From Bradyrhizobium arachidis (GTDB lineage Bacteria; Pseudomonadota; Alphaproteobacteria; Rhizobiales; Xanthobacteraceae), in contig NZ_CP077970.1 in NCBI RefSeq assembly GCF_024758505.1, forward strand, positions 3,534,001 through 3,598,000: a stretch of 64,000 nucleotides of DNA. The letters are read 5' to 3'. Shown piece after piece: positions 30,431-51,150 of this stretch; within the stretch, counting starts at the first letter, position 1, and every line of letters begins with the position of its first letter. The notes under the pieces were generated by a model, which was given only the letters and a program-made list of their open reading frames with translations, had not been told where the DNA came from and searched no databases. The position numbers and the translations under genes are program-made.

Positions 30431-30508
30431 AGTATGATCCGGAAAAGTGTGCAGCGGTTTTCCCTCGCGACAAACGCGGAACGCGTTTGCGCGGAGATCA
30501 TGCTCAAA
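30431..30508. repeat. Dispersed repeat AGCATGATCCGGAAAAGTG family inside the flgB-flgC gap (copy 1)
   Basis: About 78 bp with inverted ends (AGTATGATC / GATCATGCT). It is almost identical to the copy at 49693-49770; a shorter relative is at 43269-43320. It begins directly after the flgB stop codon and ends about 13 bp before flgC. Confidence 0.9.
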
Positions 30509-43268: not shown

Positions 43269-43269
<1 letters not shown>

Positions 43270-43320
43270 GCATGATCCGGAAAAGTGCGTAGCGGTTTTC
43301 CGGAAAGATCATGCTCAAGA
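43269..43320. repeat. Dispersed repeat AGCATGATCCGGAAAAGTG family (short copy 2)
   Basis: A shortened form of the repeat seen at 30431 and 49693, with ends AGCATGATC / GATCATGCT. It begins at the last base of the fumarase gene. Confidence 0.85.
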
Positions 43321-45565: not shown

Positions 45566-45862
45566 CTAGGCCCGCGTGCCCGTGAACGGGAAGCTGCCCA
45601 TCGGACCGATGCCCGCCTCGCCGCTCATGCTGTCGCCGGCGACCTTGCCGATGAACTCGAGTGTCAACGGCATCGGGTTGGTGATCGAGACTTTCCAGTT
45701 GACGGCATCGCCACTGACAGCACCGTCGAAGATCTCGGTCGTGTCGCCGTCGGCGCCTTGCGTGCCGGTCAGCGTGCCGCCGGAGCTCTTCAGGCTTAGC
45801 GTCGTCTGGCGCTCGCCCATCGGCGTCGTCAGTGTCAGATTCCAGTTTCCGTCAACGGCCAT
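45566..45862 (-). CDS. Small beta-sheet hypothetical protein (98 aa)
   Basis: MAVDGNWNLTLTTPMGERQT begins a small beta-rich, lipocalin-like sheet with TLSLKSSGGTLTGTQGADGD and LEFIGKVAGDSMSGEAG. Such short proteins occur in many proteobacteria with unknown function. GGGAGA lies before the ATG at 45862; an in-frame extension to 45916 looks non-coding. It is 22 bp upstream of the SH3-like gene in the same direction, so the two are probably cotranscribed. Confidence 0.8.
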   Translation of the reverse strand: MAVDGNWNLTLTTPMGERQTTLSLKSSGGTLTGTQGADGDTTEIFDGAVSGDAVNWKVSITNPMPLTLEFIGKVAGDSMSGEAGIGPMGSFPFTGTRA

Positions 45863-46060: not shown

Positions 46061-46615
46061 TCAGGCGCGGGCGGCCGCACGCATCCGGCTGCCGACGATG
46101 AGGCGGAAGGCGACGTACTGGATCCCGAACGCCGCGAGCTTGGTGCCGACCAGAACCACCGAGATGTAGAAGGCCCACAGCTTCATGTCGCCGGTCATCG
46201 CAACCGCAACCGTGCCGGCGGCAAGCACGAACATCAGCGCGGACCAGGCGTAGCCGGCAGCCGTCACATATTCCGGAATGGTCTCGCTCACGATCGGCGG
46301 CATGTAACGCAGCATCCAGCCGCGCTTGAGCATGATGATGCCGATCGCGACATGTCCGATCGCGGGCTTTGCCAGCACGAAGCGGGGATCGTGGGTCAGC
46401 AGCGTCAGGCTGCCGAGCACGATGACGAGGCCAAGGCTTGCCCAGGTCATGTAGCTCAGCGTCTGACCCTTGTACCGCGACCAGGCCACCTGGCCGATGG
46501 CGCCGAGGATCGCGACGGCGGTTGCAAGGATGACGTTGTCGGTCGCGAGATAGATGACCAGGAAGACGATGGTGGAGAGGAAGTCGGAGACGAGCCGGCG
46601 GAATACGTCTTTCAT
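46061..46615 (-). CDS. IspZ/YciB-like septation-type inner membrane protein
   Basis: A 184-aa polytopic protein with five or six helices. IspZ-like landmarks are FLSTIVFLVIYLATDN, AVAILGAIGQVAWSRYKGQ, LGLVIVLGSLTLLTHDPRFV and KPAIGHVAIGIIMLKRGWML. YciB/IspZ affects septation and envelope integrity. This one lies 12 bp after another membrane gene that is preceded by TetR-type operators. It may therefore be a specialised paralogue rather than the housekeeping copy. Confidence 0.8.
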   Translation of the reverse strand: MKDVFRRLVSDFLSTIVFLVIYLATDNVILATAVAILGAIGQVAWSRYKGQTLSYMTWASLGLVIVLGSLTLLTHDPRFVLAKPAIGHVAIGIIMLKRGWMLRYMPPIVSETIPEYVTAAGYAWSALMFVLAAGTVAVAMTGDMKLWAFYISVVLVGTKLAAFGIQYVAFRLIVGSRMRAAARA

Positions 46616-46627
46616 CGTCTGTCCTGT

Positions 46628-47203
46628 CTAGTGCGGGTGAGGCAGGGCGTTCGGGGGCGTACCGTACTTGATCTTGCGGTACTCGGGATACCATTTTGTG
46701 AAATACAGGGCGCTGTTGCGGGCGGCAAAGGCGATCGCAATGCTGGACCAGATCGGCAGGCCGGGGACGTAGAGCAGCACGACATTGGCGGCGAGCATCA
46801 GCAGCGCGGCCGCGGTCCATGCGGCGGTGATGTAGTAGTTGGCGCGCAAGAATCCGGGCATCGCTGCGGTCTCGGCCGGTACGGCTTCGATCGCATATTG
46901 CAGCGTGAAGGGGCGGCGGATCAGCATCGAGCCGAGCGAGAGGACGAAGATGCCGGTGTCGATCGACACCTTTACGCCGAGCGTACCGAATGCGGGATCG
47001 ACGAGGAGCAGGTAGAGGCCGATCGCGGCGAAGATGATCGCGGAGCCCGCGGCCAGCGTCTTCACCGAACGGCCGTACCAGAGGTCGATTGCGATGGTTG
47101 CGAGGCAGATCGCAGACGCCGTGAACACGCTCACGAGCGCGGATGCCACGAACATCAGGAAGGTGAACGCGCCATAGGGGGCAAGGATCAGGAAAATCGC
47201 CAT
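46628..47203 (-). CDS. Polytopic membrane protein, first gene of the TetR-linked operon
   Basis: A 191-aa protein with about five helices (MAIFLILAPYGAFTFLMFVA, LAAGSAIIFAAIGLYLLLVD, AAWTAAALLMLAANVVLLYV). Its overall pattern is similar to the IspZ-like neighbour, so the two may form a pair. The family was not recognised. The ATG at 47203 is 22 bp downstream (in transcription) of the first of two 19-bp operators. Its product may work with the downstream IspZ-like protein. Confidence 0.75.
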   Translation of the reverse strand: MAIFLILAPYGAFTFLMFVASALVSVFTASAICLATIAIDLWYGRSVKTLAAGSAIIFAAIGLYLLLVDPAFGTLGVKVSIDTGIFVLSLGSMLIRRPFTLQYAIEAVPAETAAMPGFLRANYYITAAWTAAALLMLAANVVLLYVPGLPIWSSIAIAFAARNSALYFTKWYPEYRKIKYGTPPNALPHPH

Positions 47204-47224
47204 GGGACGTCTCGGGTCAGGCAA

Positions 47225-47243
47225 ATCTTGACAGTGTCAAGAT
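47225..47243. promoter_or_regulatory. TetR-type operator A (perfect palindrome)
   Basis: ATCTTGACAGTGTCAAGAT, perfect 9+1+9 dyad, 22 bp before the membrane-operon start. Same motif as operators B-D. Confidence 0.85.
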
Positions 47244-47276
47244 GGATAATTCAGGTCCGTGGCCGGGTCAAGGGAA

Positions 47277-47295
47277 ATCTTTACAGTGTCAAAAT
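47277..47295. promoter_or_regulatory. TetR-type operator B
   Basis: ATCTTTACAGTGTCAAAAT, 52 bp from operator A centre to centre (about five helical turns). It is in the same intergenic region. Confidence 0.8.
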
Positions 47296-47346
47296 TGTGT
47301 GATTGAGGGTTTAAAACATCAAATGGATCAAGGTCTTGGAAGTGGC

Positions 47347-47384
47347 GTCATTCCGGGTTCGCGCTTCACGCGTCCCGGAATGAC
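47347..47384. repeat. Dispersed palindromic repeat, GTCATTCCGGG family (short copy 3)
   Basis: GTCATTCCGGGTTCGCGC... ...CGTCCCGGAATGAC, a compact hairpin. It lies 15 bp past the 3' end of the carotenoid oxygenase gene and may end its transcript before the membrane operon promoter. Confidence 0.8.
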
Positions 47385-47398
47385 GACAGGAGCTTGCT

Positions 47399-48796
47399 TT
47401 ACTGCGCGCCCACCCAGTTGCCGTGAAAACCGTCGGGCACGCGATGGCCGAGCTGCACCAGCGCGACGGGACCTGCCTCGACGTCGGTGGCGTTGAACAC
47501 CGCAAGGTCGCTGCGGTTCTCGCGCGCGCGCCAGACCACCGCGAGAAGCCAGCCGTCGCCTTCAGCGGCATCCTTGCCTCGCACGACGAAGACCGGTTCG
47601 GAGATGGTGTCGCCGGCGGGCAGCAGATAATGGCCGAGCCGCTTTCCGGCGCCGTCGACATGTACGATGCCGGAGAGTGCGCCGAACATCGGCAGCTTTG
47701 GATTGGCGCAGGCGTACCAGCCGTGATTGCTCTTCAGTCCGGCGCGGCGGTCGTCGACACGCGGGAATTCGCCGGTGAGGTCGTCGAGATAAGTCTGCTG
47801 GAAGCGGTCGGTATTCCCTGAGAGATCGAAGGTCCAGCGGCAATGCCGTGCGCGCGATTTCTCGGGATCCGTAGGCCTGCCGTCGGGATGCGGGAAGAGC
47901 GGCGCCTCCTCGAACTGCATGACGTCCGCGATGATGCGATTGCCTTCCTCCCACGCGTTCATGACATGGAAGACGTAGCAGCTCTCGGCGCGAAACCAGA
48001 CGATGTTCTTTTCAGATCCGCTGCGCTTCATGACGCGTACATAGGCGCCTTGCTCCGGCTCCCAGGCATAGGGCGGCTTGCCGCTCATCGCGCGTTGCAT
48101 GCTGCCCGTGATCGGCAGGATCGGAAACAGCACGTGATTTTCGGTGACGATGAAGTCGTGCACCATGCTGGCATAGGGCGCCTCGAACCGCGTGAAGCGC
48201 GTCACCTTGCCCGATGCGTCGATCGAACCGTAGGAGAGGGCGGGTGTGAGAGGGCCGCTCGCATTGTAGCCGAAGAACACGAGTTCGCCGGTCGCGGGAT
48301 CGACCTTCGGATGCGCCGTGAACGGACCGGCGATGCGGCCCTGGAAGTTGCAGTAGCCGCGCGTCGCGAGCGTGCCGGGCTCGATCTCGGTCGGCAGGTG
48401 CGCCTCTTCGAGCGCAAGCAGCTTGCCGGCGTGGAAGATGATGTTGGTGTTGGCGACGCCGCCGTCGGTGAGGTTTGCCGGCGCATCCGGCATCTTGCGG
48501 CCGAAGCCGCCGAACAGCGCGCGTCCCGCATCGTGCTCGGCGAGAAATTTGGGCGTGCGGACCCAGCGGTTGCGATAACTCGCCTTGCCGTTCTCGAGGT
48601 GAAAAGCGTGCAGCATGCCGTCGCCGACGAACCAGTGCGCGCCGGGCGCGTCGAACTGCGGATTGGGGCCGTTGCGATAGAGCGTGCCGTTCAGCTCCCG
48701 CGGCAATTCGCCGACGATCTTGAGGTGCGGCGCGTCGGCCTCGAACGGGATCGGCGCGAGATTGGTCCGGGGCTGATTCAAGGCGTCATGCTGCAC
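47399..48796 (-). CDS. Carotenoid cleavage oxygenase (RPE65/lignostilbene dioxygenase family)
   Basis: A non-haem iron dioxygenase that cleaves a conjugated double bond of carotenoids, apocarotenoids or stilbenes. The 465-aa product has the four iron-binding His regions: GPFTAHPKVDPATGEL, YASMVHDFIVTENHVLF, CYVFHVMNAWEEGN and, at the C-terminus, PDGFHGNWVGAQ. The N-terminal NGTLYRNGPNPQFDAPGAHW with WFVGDGMLHAFHLENGKASY is the family start. It is divergent from the TetR gene with two operators between. The real substrate cannot be told from sequence; lignin-derived stilbenes are also possible. Confidence 0.93.
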   Translation of the reverse strand: MQHDALNQPRTNLAPIPFEADAPHLKIVGELPRELNGTLYRNGPNPQFDAPGAHWFVGDGMLHAFHLENGKASYRNRWVRTPKFLAEHDAGRALFGGFGRKMPDAPANLTDGGVANTNIIFHAGKLLALEEAHLPTEIEPGTLATRGYCNFQGRIAGPFTAHPKVDPATGELVFFGYNASGPLTPALSYGSIDASGKVTRFTRFEAPYASMVHDFIVTENHVLFPILPITGSMQRAMSGKPPYAWEPEQGAYVRVMKRSGSEKNIVWFRAESCYVFHVMNAWEEGNRIIADVMQFEEAPLFPHPDGRPTDPEKSRARHCRWTFDLSGNTDRFQQTYLDDLTGEFPRVDDRRAGLKSNHGWYACANPKLPMFGALSGIVHVDGAGKRLGHYLLPAGDTISEPVFVVRGKDAAEGDGWLLAVVWRARENRSDLAVFNATDVEAGPVALVQLGHRVPDGFHGNWVGAQ

Positions 48797-48812
48797 GGCG
48801 TAGTCCCTCCCT

Positions 48813-48831
48813 ATCTTTACATCGTAAAGAT
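48813..48831. promoter_or_regulatory. TetR-type operator C
   Basis: ATCTTTACATCGTAAAGAT, dyad with perfect 8-bp arms, 16 bp before the carotenoid oxygenase start. Confidence 0.8.
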
Positions 48832-48865
48832 CGCTTACCGAAGCCCGACGCGCCGGTCAAGCAAA

Positions 48866-48884
48866 ATCTTTACACTGTCAAAAT
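48866..48884. promoter_or_regulatory. TetR-type operator D
   Basis: ATCTTTACACTGTCAAAAT, 20 bp before the TetR gene, 53 bp from operator C. This suggests autoregulation. Confidence 0.8.
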
Positions 48885-48904
48885 TGCGTCATATAAGCTG
48901 GCCT

Positions 48905-49687
48905 ATGGCCAAAACCGAAACAATTCGTCGTCCAGGCGCGAGCGCCAAAAGGGCATCGTCGTCCGCATCAGGCGCGCGGCCGCACCCCGCGCGCAAGGCT
49001 GGCAGCGCCAAGACTGGCGCTGCCAAGACTGGCGCTGCCAAGACCGGCACCGCGAAGACCGAAACGCCATATCACCATGGCGCGCTGCGCGAGGCCTTGC
49101 TGCAGGCGGCCGAGCGCATTTTGGAGCGCGACGGGCTCGCCGGCCTCACATTGCGTGCGGTGGCGCGCGAGGCGGGCGTGTCGCATGCCGCGCCCACCCA
49201 TCATTTCGGCGATCTGACGGGCCTGATCAGCGAACTCGCGGCAATCGGCTTCCGCAGGTTCAATGCAGCCATGGTCGCCGCCCGCAACAGCGAGGCGCAT
49301 CCGCTGATGAGGGGGATGGCGAATGCAAAGGCCTATGTCGCCTATGCGCGCGAGCATCCCGGCATGTACAGCCTGATGTTCCGCACCGAGCGGCTCGATT
49401 ATTCGCGGCCGTCGCTGCACGAGGCCGCCAGCGCTTCGTTCCAGGGCTTGGCGAGCTCGGCTCGCTTCGCTCGTCCGGAGCAACTCACCCAGGATGCGCT
49501 CGAGGCCTTGTCGCTCGATCATGCGGCGGTGATCGCGCGCAACTGGTCGTTGGTACACGGCTTCACCATGCTGATGCTCGACGGACGGCTGAAGGACATC
49601 CTGCATCGCCTGCCGGAAGGCACCACGCCCGAGCAGCTTCTGGAAGCGGTCCTGAAGTCGACGGTGCAGAAGCCGCCGGAATGCTGA
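48905..49687 (+). CDS. TetR-family regulator with Lys/Ala-rich N-terminal tail
   Basis: A 260-aa regulator. The TetR HTH lies at about residues 65-110: REALLQAAERILERDGLAGL, then TLRAVAREAGVSHAAPTHHF. A ligand-binding domain follows (MRGMANAKAYVAYAREHPGM, YSLMFRTERLDYSRP; TetR_C WHG type). The first 55 residues are Lys/Ala/Thr/Ser-rich with the tandem unit KTGAAKTGAAKTGTAKT, resembling histone-like DNA-binding tails. It likely represses itself, the oxygenase and the membrane operon through the 19-bp palindromes. Confidence 0.9.
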   Translation: MAKTETIRRPGASAKRASSSASGARPHPARKAGSAKTGAAKTGAAKTGTAKTETPYHHGALREALLQAAERILERDGLAGLTLRAVAREAGVSHAAPTHHFGDLTGLISELAAIGFRRFNAAMVAARNSEAHPLMRGMANAKAYVAYAREHPGMYSLMFRTERLDYSRPSLHEAASASFQGLASSARFARPEQLTQDALEALSLDHAAVIARNWSLVHGFTMLMLDGRLKDILHRLPEGTTPEQLLEAVLKSTVQKPPEC

Positions 49688-49692
49688 TCTAG

Positions 49693-49770
49693 AGCATGAT
49701 CCGGAAAAGTGTGCAGCGGTTTTCCCTCGCGACAAACGCGGAACGCGTTTGCGCGGAGATCATGCTCAAA
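49693..49770. repeat. Dispersed repeat AGCATGATCCGGAAAAGTG family (copy 3)
   Basis: 78 bp with ends AGCATGATC / GATCATGCT. It differs from the copy in the flgB-flgC gap by only one base. It lies 5 bp after the TetR stop. Confidence 0.92.
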
Positions 49771-50416: not shown

Positions 50417-50580
50417 GATGAGCCCCTTGGGCCGCGGAACCCTCTCCATCAGACGTGCTCATTGTGGGGAAGGTTCAAAGGGGGCTTCGTAGCACCTGAC
50501 AGCGGCGCGGAATCGTTCTAGAAGAGCGCCTTCGCTTGAGCCCCAAAGGGCTTCGTTCGCGTTTCTCACGTTTCTCGGTC

Positions 50581-51150
50581 ATGCCCGCTATCTCCACGAA
50601 CAAACCGTTTCGCGTCGGCCGCTCCAAGACCGGACTTGGTCTCTTCGCCACCAAACCGATCAAGAAGGGTTCCCGGATCATCCGCTATTTCGGGCCGATC
50701 CTGGATTCGCGGATCAAGGAACAGGACGACATCGAGAACAAGTACCTGTTCGAGCTGAACGGTCGCTGGACCATCGACGGCTCGGTGCGCAAGAACGTCG
50801 CCCGCTACATCAACCATTCCTGCCGGCCGAATGCGGAATCCGACGTGCGACCGCGCGAGCGCAAGGTCTTCATCCGCGCCATCAAGAACATCGAGCCGGG
50901 CGACGAGATCAACTACGATTACGGCACGGACTATTTCAAAGCCTATCTGAAGCCGATCGGCTGCAAATGCCAATCCTGCGAGAAGAAGCGCAAGAAGATG
51001 CGCGCCGAAGCTCGCGCCGAGCGGGCAAAAGTCAAGGCGCGCGCCGAGCGCAAAGCGCAGAAGGCGGCCGGCAAGACTGCGGCAACCAAGGCACCGGCAA
51101 AGAAGAAGCTGAACGGCAAGCATTTCAACGGCAAGGTCGGACGCGTCTGA
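50581..51150 (+). CDS. SET-domain protein-lysine methyltransferase with H1-like basic tail
   Basis: A 189-aa protein. The SET domain (about residues 7-125) has FRVGRSKTGLGLFATKPIKK, IIRYFGPILDS, VARYINHSCRPNAESDVR (NHSC catalytic/pseudoknot motif) and GDEINYDYGTDYF. A CKCQSCEKKRKK post-SET-like cysteine cluster follows (three Cys). The last 60 residues are Lys/Ala/Arg-rich (KAQKAAGKTAATKAPAKKK), like histone H1 or bacterial HctB tails. SET enzymes transfer methyl from S-adenosylmethionine to lysine. The target is unknown; nucleoid proteins or ribosomal proteins are reasonable guesses. Confidence 0.9.
   Translation: MPAISTNKPFRVGRSKTGLGLFATKPIKKGSRIIRYFGPILDSRIKEQDDIENKYLFELNGRWTIDGSVRKNVARYINHSCRPNAESDVRPRERKVFIRAIKNIEPGDEINYDYGTDYFKAYLKPIGCKCQSCEKKRKKMRAEARAERAKVKARAERKAQKAAGKTAATKAPAKKKLNGKHFNGKVGRV

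Follow-up and report, generated by a model that had tools for sequence, protein, structure and literature searches.

In divergent TetR/TetA-type regulons, the repressor gene points away from its target gene and palindromic operators lie over both promoters. Here, we analysed a 64,000-nucleotide stretch of the Bradyrhizobium arachidis genome (contig NZ_CP077970.1, positions 3,534,001 to 3,598,000; this whole stretch is called the window), in which a TetR-family repressor gene, a divergent gene for a carotenoid-cleavage-type oxygenase (CCD) and an operon for two membrane proteins, ORF2 and ORF1 (ORF, open reading frame), are accompanied by four copies of a 19-bp dyad. As to related proteins, PMC6097328 describes NOV1 as a stilbene cleaver and a lysine as a residue that binds resveratrol in stilbene cleavers, and the order of the plant abscisic acid (ABA) pathway, with ABA4 (neoxanthin synthase) and NCED, is given in PMC10004953.

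It is very probable, judging from comparison of sequences, that one TetR protein controls its own gene, the CCD gene and the membrane operon, because operators, genes and spacing are conserved together, lost together and joined again in new arrangements, and because a recognition helix similar to that of this repressor is found with the dyad also in other families of the order. Control of all three units by the TetR had been suggested in the initial annotation of the window, and the comparison speaks for it, with the full layout in 78 of 80 loci, co-loss of the parts and operator pairs that are shared between units.

Operator pairs and predicted promoters

The TetR-family repressor (260 residues; 48905..49687, + strand) consists of a low-complexity N-terminal extension of about 50 residues, a helix-turn-helix domain with the recognition helix AGVSHAAPTHHF and a C-terminal TetR_C_33 domain. 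Its Pfam scores are above the cut-offs for both TetR_N (PF00440; 34.9 bits, cut-off 24) and TetR_C_33 (51 bits). The CCD (465 residues; 47399..48796, - strand) belongs to the RPE65 family (PF03055), with 451.8 bits over positions 2-468 of 469, and it is the sole gene of this family found in the genome (a single match).

All four dyads proposed in the initial annotation were recovered at the same positions by a sequence scan, which also confirms their layout in pairs and the spacing. Two of them (48813-48831 and 48866-48884) lie between the divergent CCD and tetR genes, 53 bp apart from start to start, and two (47225-47243 and 47277-47295) lie upstream of the ORF2-ORF1 operon, 52 bp apart. On the + strand the copy at 48813-48831 has one mismatch and the other three have none. 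At up to 3 mismatches, the window contains 8 strand-matches (4 places) versus a shuffle mean of 0.03, and 100 shuffles gave no count as high as 8. Genome-wide (one contig, 9,429,272 bases), the dyad occurs at up to 1 mismatch in these four places only; two further places have 2 mismatches, one of them inside a gene (L174; L and G numbers are our labels for loci and genomes).

The palindromic operators overlap the predicted promoters of regulator and target and are kept together with the regulator, the promoters having been placed by a footprint of conserved columns. For the CCD gene, the likely promoter (48832..48860, - strand) has a -35 element TTGACC (48860-48855), a 17-bp spacer and a -10 element TAAGCG (48837-48832), directly followed by the operator that adjoins the gene (48813..48831); the footprint keeps CTTGAC in 100% and the TA of the -10 element in 97-100%. 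The likely promoter of the membrane operon (47243..47271, - strand) is built in the same way, with TTGACC (47271-47266), a 17-bp spacer and TATCCA (47248-47243), and in 75 distinct loci CTTGAC and the TA are strongly kept and the remaining -10 positions weakly. Generally, the TTGAC of CTTGAC starts 5 bp past the distal operator (47277..47295 in the membrane operon), and 17 bp past the hexamer a conserved TA opens the -10 element, which touches the proximal operator and beyond the TA is poorly conserved in both promoters. The proximal operator of the membrane operon (47225..47243) overlaps the expected transcription start according to the scan and the footprint.

The tetR promoter is arranged differently. 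Its likely -35 element TTTACA (48869-48874, + strand) lies inside the operator that adjoins the gene (48866..48884), and the likely -10 element TATAAG (48892..48897), 17 bp after TTTACA, lies outside it, with its TATA columns kept in 99-100% of a footprint of 73 distinct loci. This -10 element is only 7 bp ahead of the start codon (48905), which makes a leaderless tetR mRNA probable.

The first gene of the membrane operon, ORF2 (46628..47203, - strand), encodes a polytopic membrane protein of 191 residues, which AlphaFold predicts to be all-helical (mean predicted local distance difference test score, pLDDT, of 86). Its start is most likely the ATG at 47203 and not the TTG of a 198-residue reading frame, because this TTG lies at the operator edge and most tblastn matches begin near residue 4-8. 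The motifs RPFTxQYAxE and FTxWYP are common to ORF2 and its relatives. ORF1 (46061..46615, - strand; 184 residues) is a membrane protein of the IspA/IspZ family (PF04279; 61.2 bits, cut-off 28.7), at 65.1 bits for its best NCBIfam model versus the 180 required by the IspZ septation equivalog. The two had been annotated as an IspZ-like membrane pair, a description that gains support for ORF1 alone, as ORF2 has no Pfam match. No Pfam IspA match was found in 18 members of the ORF2 family either, and hhalign of ORF2 against ORF1, with shallow alignments, found nothing. The VC0807 model (NF041646) matches 15 of these 18 members weakly at E up to 0.01 (ORF2 itself with 19.1 bits, cut-off 65), and it also matches ORF1 weakly; none of TetR, CCD, ORF2 and ORF1 reaches an NCBIfam cut-off.

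A small protein of 98 residues without a Pfam family is encoded 198 bp downstream of ORF1 (45566..45862, - strand). This gene follows ORF1 on the same strand in all 80 loci compared below (median distance of 134 bp between match ends, in one locus 2.3 kb), and in L133 (genome G050), where no ORF1 match was found, it follows ORF2. It may be the last gene of the membrane operon, and the gap is wide enough to hold a separate promoter.

Conservation, loss and additional targets in Bradyrhizobium

The loci compared were obtained from one search of GTDB genomes seeded with ORF2 (80 of 89 relatives kept), which biases them to loci with ORF2; the counts over 146 Bradyrhizobium genomes given further on are free of this bias. 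By title, 77 of the 80 loci come from Bradyrhizobium, and the others from a Bradyrhizobiaceae metagenome-assembled genome, a Xanthobacteraceae metagenome-assembled genome and a contig titled Frankia. As the locus on the latter (L064, Frankia sp. RB7) is of the usual Bradyrhizobium type, this record probably has a wrong label or contains contaminating DNA.

The order TetR, operator pair, CCD, operator pair, ORF2, ORF1 is found in 78 of the 80 loci. The remaining two are L109, where TetR, ORF2, ORF1 and three sites are kept without a CCD match, and L111, where a short contig covers ORF2, ORF1 and one pair. The spacing is kept as well: the pair between TetR and CCD is 53 bp apart in 73 of 78 loci (54 bp in 3, 52 bp in 1 and 42 bp in 1), and that before ORF2 is 52 bp apart in 75 of 78 (53 bp in 2 and 51 bp in 1).

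Among the 146 Bradyrhizobium genomes, dyads at up to 2 mismatches are found in 144, the CCD in 135 (E 1e-100) and ORF2 in 136 (E 0.001, with remnants and distant relatives counted). At least 4 sites, at up to 2 mismatches and anywhere in the genome, are present in 124 of the 129 genomes with a full ORF2 (long and not distant) versus 1 of the 17 without it (Fisher p = 3.8e-16, shared ancestry ignored). In the latter genome (G030), two of the four sites precede a gene for a CrtISO-like fusion protein, described below. All five exceptions among the 129 genomes are arranged in a way that predicts continued co-regulation. In G050, G090 and G131 the CCD is absent, and a single common pair separates the divergent TetR and ORF2 genes (loci without the CCD and with such a pair include L133-L135 and, with a truncated ORF2, L138), and in G006 and G119 ORF2 lies directly after the CCD, behind one pair. 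When genomes with both CCD and ORF2 are counted, 121 of 123 have at least 4 sites. In G097, with ORF2 and at least 4 sites and no CCD match, three of the sites precede ORF2 and a pair precedes the fusion gene.

The reverse loss was found in G021, G040, G059, G061 and G094, which keep the CCD, the CCD pair and ORF1, and in which ORF2 is reduced to its 3' end and has no good pair before it; L128 and L131 show a single poor dyad (3 or 4 mismatches) ahead of the ORF2 remnant. These five genomes and part of G032 are those that were read among the 12 with a CCD and without a full ORF2, leaving aside G038, G078, G091, G114, G129 and G135. G032 contains a CCD of 81% identity at a separate place and, elsewhere, a diverged system consisting of a TetR (50% identical), two poor sites (3 and 4 mismatches) at a spacing of 52 bp, a DUF6790 gene, a CCD (31%) and an ORF2 (41%). 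A search of related genomes for joint conservation had been recommended with the initial annotation, and its outcome, in these 146 genomes and beyond the genus, is that operators and the three units are kept, lost and re-joined together.

Operator pairs also precede genes outside the locus. Site lists were read for about 31 of the 146 genomes, so there are at least as many such trans targets as are given here. One is a gene of 707 residues in G064 (L115:8091-10214), which lies behind a second pair. Its product resembles CrtISO/CrtI in the C-terminal part (152 bits against the carotenoid isomerase model TIGR02730, cut-off 587), and its first 190 residues form an ORF2 domain according to profile comparison (hhalign E 7e-13, over nearly the full length). 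Homologues of this fusion were found at E 1e-30 in 6 of the 146 genomes, with 7 or 8 first-look candidates scored per genome. Four of them, at least 71% identical, have an upstream pair 53-56 bp apart with 1-3 mismatches, and two, 51-52% identical and one of them cut by a contig end, have no pair. Fusions of this type also occur in two other families of the order (L170 and L171). Tandem genes for an M20 amidohydrolase occur in G127, G017 and G077, and there the downstream gene has a pair at a spacing of 53 bp ahead of it (L116:11582-11653, L176:7306-7377 and L177:6936-7007). A perfect single dyad was observed in G082 (L178:6828-6846).

Two further features of the window were observed. A 33-bp dispersed repeat has three copies with 0-2 mismatches (49693-49725, 43269-43301 and 30431-30463), and a SET-domain protein (PF00856, 87.9 bits) is encoded near tetR at 50536-51150, with similar ones recognised by eye at L167, L173 and L182.

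A shared operator and recognition helix outside the genus

The dyad at up to 1 mismatch occurs in 34 of 297 genomes of the order, nine of which belong to Bradyrhizobium. The remaining 25, from other genera, were selected solely for having the dyad and were read at one place each, and in 17 of these loci a related TetR (33-46% identical) lies beside the dyad. A recognition helix like that of the window TetR recurs in the dyad-associated TetRs; in the 17 it reads VS[HP]AAPxHHF or differs little from this pattern (VSHAAPAYHF, ASHAAPGYHF).

The genes divergent from these 17 TetR genes encode an ABA4-like protein with a partner membrane protein in 13 loci, a DUF2306 protein in 3 and an unclear product in 1. 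The 13 divergent units with ABA4-like genes (L183, L184, L186-L189, L192-L194, L203 and L209-L211) come from other families of the order. The ABA4-like assignment is by PF14108 in the 4 that were scanned (85.7-98.4 bits, cut-off 27) and by tblastn in the other 9, and DUF2306 is assigned by Pfam in the 1 scanned of 3. The partner membrane protein has no Pfam match in the four loci scanned. A TauE gene was noted after tetR in L183 (Pfam) and, by eye, in L188 and L193.

At the ABA4- and DUF2306-type loci, sites at up to 4 mismatches have spacings of 20-21 bp, 26 bp or 31-35 bp, and triples spaced by 21 and 31 bp, 52 in sum, are frequent. The CTTGAC of the Bradyrhizobium pairs sits at the position of the middle site in these triples, 21 bp on from the distal operator, and this conserved CTTGAC may be a half-operator that was turned into a -35 element.

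In a TetR tree, from which two of the 13 ABA4-type loci are absent, the CCD/ORF2-type TetRs form one group (100/98) among the ABA4- and DUF2306-type TetRs, and the branch that splits the dyad-bearing TetRs from the paralogues of the window genome has a support of only 80/88. In G069, a one-mismatch dyad was seen just ahead of a different TetR gene (L179:6270-6909; 31% identical, helix VSAPSAYHHF).

The window system itself is also found outside Bradyrhizobium. In G375, from another genus of the same family, all four genes (TetR, CCD, ORF2 and ORF1) are present together with five sites, four of them in two pairs, and ORF2 is preceded by an additional gene that resembles IspA weakly (23.8 bits, cut-off 28.7). 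A single one-mismatch dyad of G375 that lies 46 bp before a DUF2306 membrane protein gene (L185:6256-6725) perhaps marks a further trans target. In G501, TetR and ORF2 lie around one pair, and a CCD of 38% identity lies beside a different TetR. In G433, from another family, TetR, a pair and the CCD lie together, ORF2 is located further away, and no ORF1 match was found.

Proposed mechanism, alternatives and known systems

In the mechanism that we propose, TetR dimers would bind the four copies of the dyad and repress tetR, the divergent CCD gene and the ORF2-ORF1 operon, perhaps with the 98-residue gene. Each operator pair would bracket a promoter, with the distal operator ending 5 bp short of the -35 element and the proximal operator beginning at the end of the -10 element and covering the transcription start, and the spacing of 52-53 bp, or five helical turns, would bring both dimers to one face of the DNA. 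A hydrophobic compound of the polyene type, taken up from the surroundings and most likely an apocarotenoid or an isoprenoid related to one, would release the repressor; the CCD would then cleave the compound, and ORF2 and ORF1 would handle it in the membrane, for example by binding it or by presenting it. The sequences themselves show the sites, the promoter footprint, the joint conservation and loss, the trans targets and the tie between recognition helix and operator; operator binding, repression, the ligand, the substrate and what the membrane proteins do are predicted, and we consider the mechanism as a whole fairly probable. Its parts differ: a polyene-type ligand is about an even call, and a role of ORF2 as a membrane docking module, suggested by the fusion of an ORF2 domain to a CrtISO-like domain, is tentative. 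The initial annotation had named an apocarotenoid or a stilbene-like compound as a possible ligand. The apocarotenoid gains partial support, since a CrtISO-like enzyme and ABA4-like proteins share the operator, and the stilbene loses ground on the active-site residues discussed next; for the accompanying idea that the compound remodels the membrane, nothing was found in support.

One alternative is a switch for lignin or stilbene catabolism, in which the CCD would cleave phenolic stilbenes and the TetR would sense a stilbenoid or the aldehyde product. The best NCBIfam match of the CCD is indeed a lignostilbene dioxygenase (NF053778, 422 bits), and its best PDB matches are labelled dioxygenase, carotenoid oxygenase or lignostilbene dioxygenase, and some of these, with NOV1 among them, are stilbene cleavers. 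However, the CCD scores far under the equivalog cut-offs of both lignostilbene models (800 for NF053778; 334 bits versus 650 for NF053780), and also under that of the 8'-apo-carotenoid 13,14-cleaving dioxygenase NF052295 (304 bits versus 675). In an alignment of 78 rows (the window and 77 loci), the four iron-ligand histidines are kept (His162, His213 and His277 in all rows, His458 in 77), and Phe98 and Glu130 occupy, in all 78 rows, the positions that we equate from our own alignment with the phenol-site residues Tyr101 and Lys134 of NOV1. Phe and Glu in place of the phenol-site Tyr and Lys speak against phenolic stilbene substrates, as does a co-regulated trans target that is carotenoid-isomerase-like, and this alternative is rather improbable. 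A Bradyrhizobium japonicum oxygenase, BRA-J (NP_772430), which is listed in PMC6097328, is a possible orthologue of the CCD.

Unlikely, too, is a switch for envelope stress or solvents, where the TetR would sense fatty-acid-like or antimicrobial amphiphiles, ORF1 and ORF2 would be IspZ/YciB-like envelope proteins and the CCD would be a side activity or a detoxifier. The place of ORF1 in PF04279, the many small membrane proteins encoded next to dyads across the clade (ABA4-like, DUF2306, DUF6790 and ORF2) and the amidohydrolase target would fit it; the occurrence of two separate carotenoid-type enzyme families among the targets (RPE65 and CrtISO-like) would not. It could also be that the TetR controls only itself and the CCD, and that another TetR-family protein reads the dyads of the membrane operon. 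The genome contains ten other TetR-like matches at E 0.001, and the nearest helix among those that were aligned, VSPAAPYRHF (L196), is not very different from that of the window TetR. However, seven of these loci were fetched (L196-L202), and none of the six that could be aligned, all with helices that differ from that of the window TetR, has a dyad at up to 4 mismatches within 400 bp of the match start. Moreover, in genomes without the CCD, TetR and ORF2 share one pair, and a second reader of the dyads is very improbable.

Several observations weigh against the proposed mechanism. No phytoene synthase or CrtI-family match over the cut-off was found in the genome, where two of the three SQS_PSY proteins are HpnC and HpnD, both over the cut-off, and the third reaches none and has no CrtB model match at E 1e-10; as no carotenoid pathway was recognised in the genome, the substrate likely comes from outside. 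Among curated models, stilbene dioxygenases come nearest to the CCD, and the M20 amidohydrolase is no obvious fit to polyene chemistry. The fusions L170 and L171 have no operator pair, and 8 of the 25 dyads from other genera have no TetR alongside, all of them single sites, including L185. G069 and G136 contain ORF2 and at least 4 sites and no CCD match at 1e-100, and around the distant ORF2 relatives L125, L126, L127 and L169 (30-37% identical) there is no dyad and no CCD or TetR match nearby.

With the proposed mechanism taken together with the findings outside the genus, one may speculate that the TetR clade with the VSHAAPxHHF-type helix and the 19-bp operator is an apocarotenoid-sensing system of the order. 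It would control relatives of ABA4 and of NCED/CCD and a membrane-anchored CrtISO-like enzyme, with ORF2 as the docking module of these enzymes, and would let soil bacteria detect and process polyenes of plants or neighbours; we hold this wider picture to be doubtful for now. If the ligand is an apocarotenoid, the locus would offer root-associated bacteria a route to sense plant compounds. In any case, most of the Bradyrhizobium genomes examined contain a defined and testable candidate regulon for non-stilbene CCDs, VC0807/IspZ-like and ABA4-like membrane proteins. We know of no evidence for the roles of these three protein groups in these bacteria; the shared operator links them by regulation and not by annotation, and the TetR is a direct handle on the ligand.

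No description of this regulon was found in the literature searched, at the level of titles and abstract openings. A TetR regulon as a kind is known; for the target set, for the arrangement of operators in pairs and for an operator that this locus has in common with ABA4-like genes, no description was found in that literature. Like the TetR/TetA type, the locus has a divergent repressor and operators overlapping both promoters, so that autoregulation is expected, but here two promoter regions each have a pair at 52-53 bp, and some genomes add trans targets. The CCD is an RPE65-family enzyme with a four-histidine iron site, as are NOV1, NOV2, LsdA and the bacterial apocarotenoid oxygenases, and it differs in falling under all three matched equivalog cut-offs and in having Glu and Phe for the phenol-site Lys and Tyr. 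ORF1 resembles IspZ/YciB through PF04279 and most ORF2 members resemble VC0807, whereas both proteins stay under the NCBIfam cut-offs and belong to a local operon with predicted operator control. The fusion protein is like CrtISO/CrtI in its C-terminal domain, yet it is far under the cut-off of that family and carries an ORF2-type membrane domain. The parallel to plant ABA4 and NCED is that ABA4 relatives (PF14108) and an enzyme from the CCD/NCED superfamily are encoded beside one operator type and related TetRs, but these systems are bacterial, and the relatives lie in different genomes and not in one operon.

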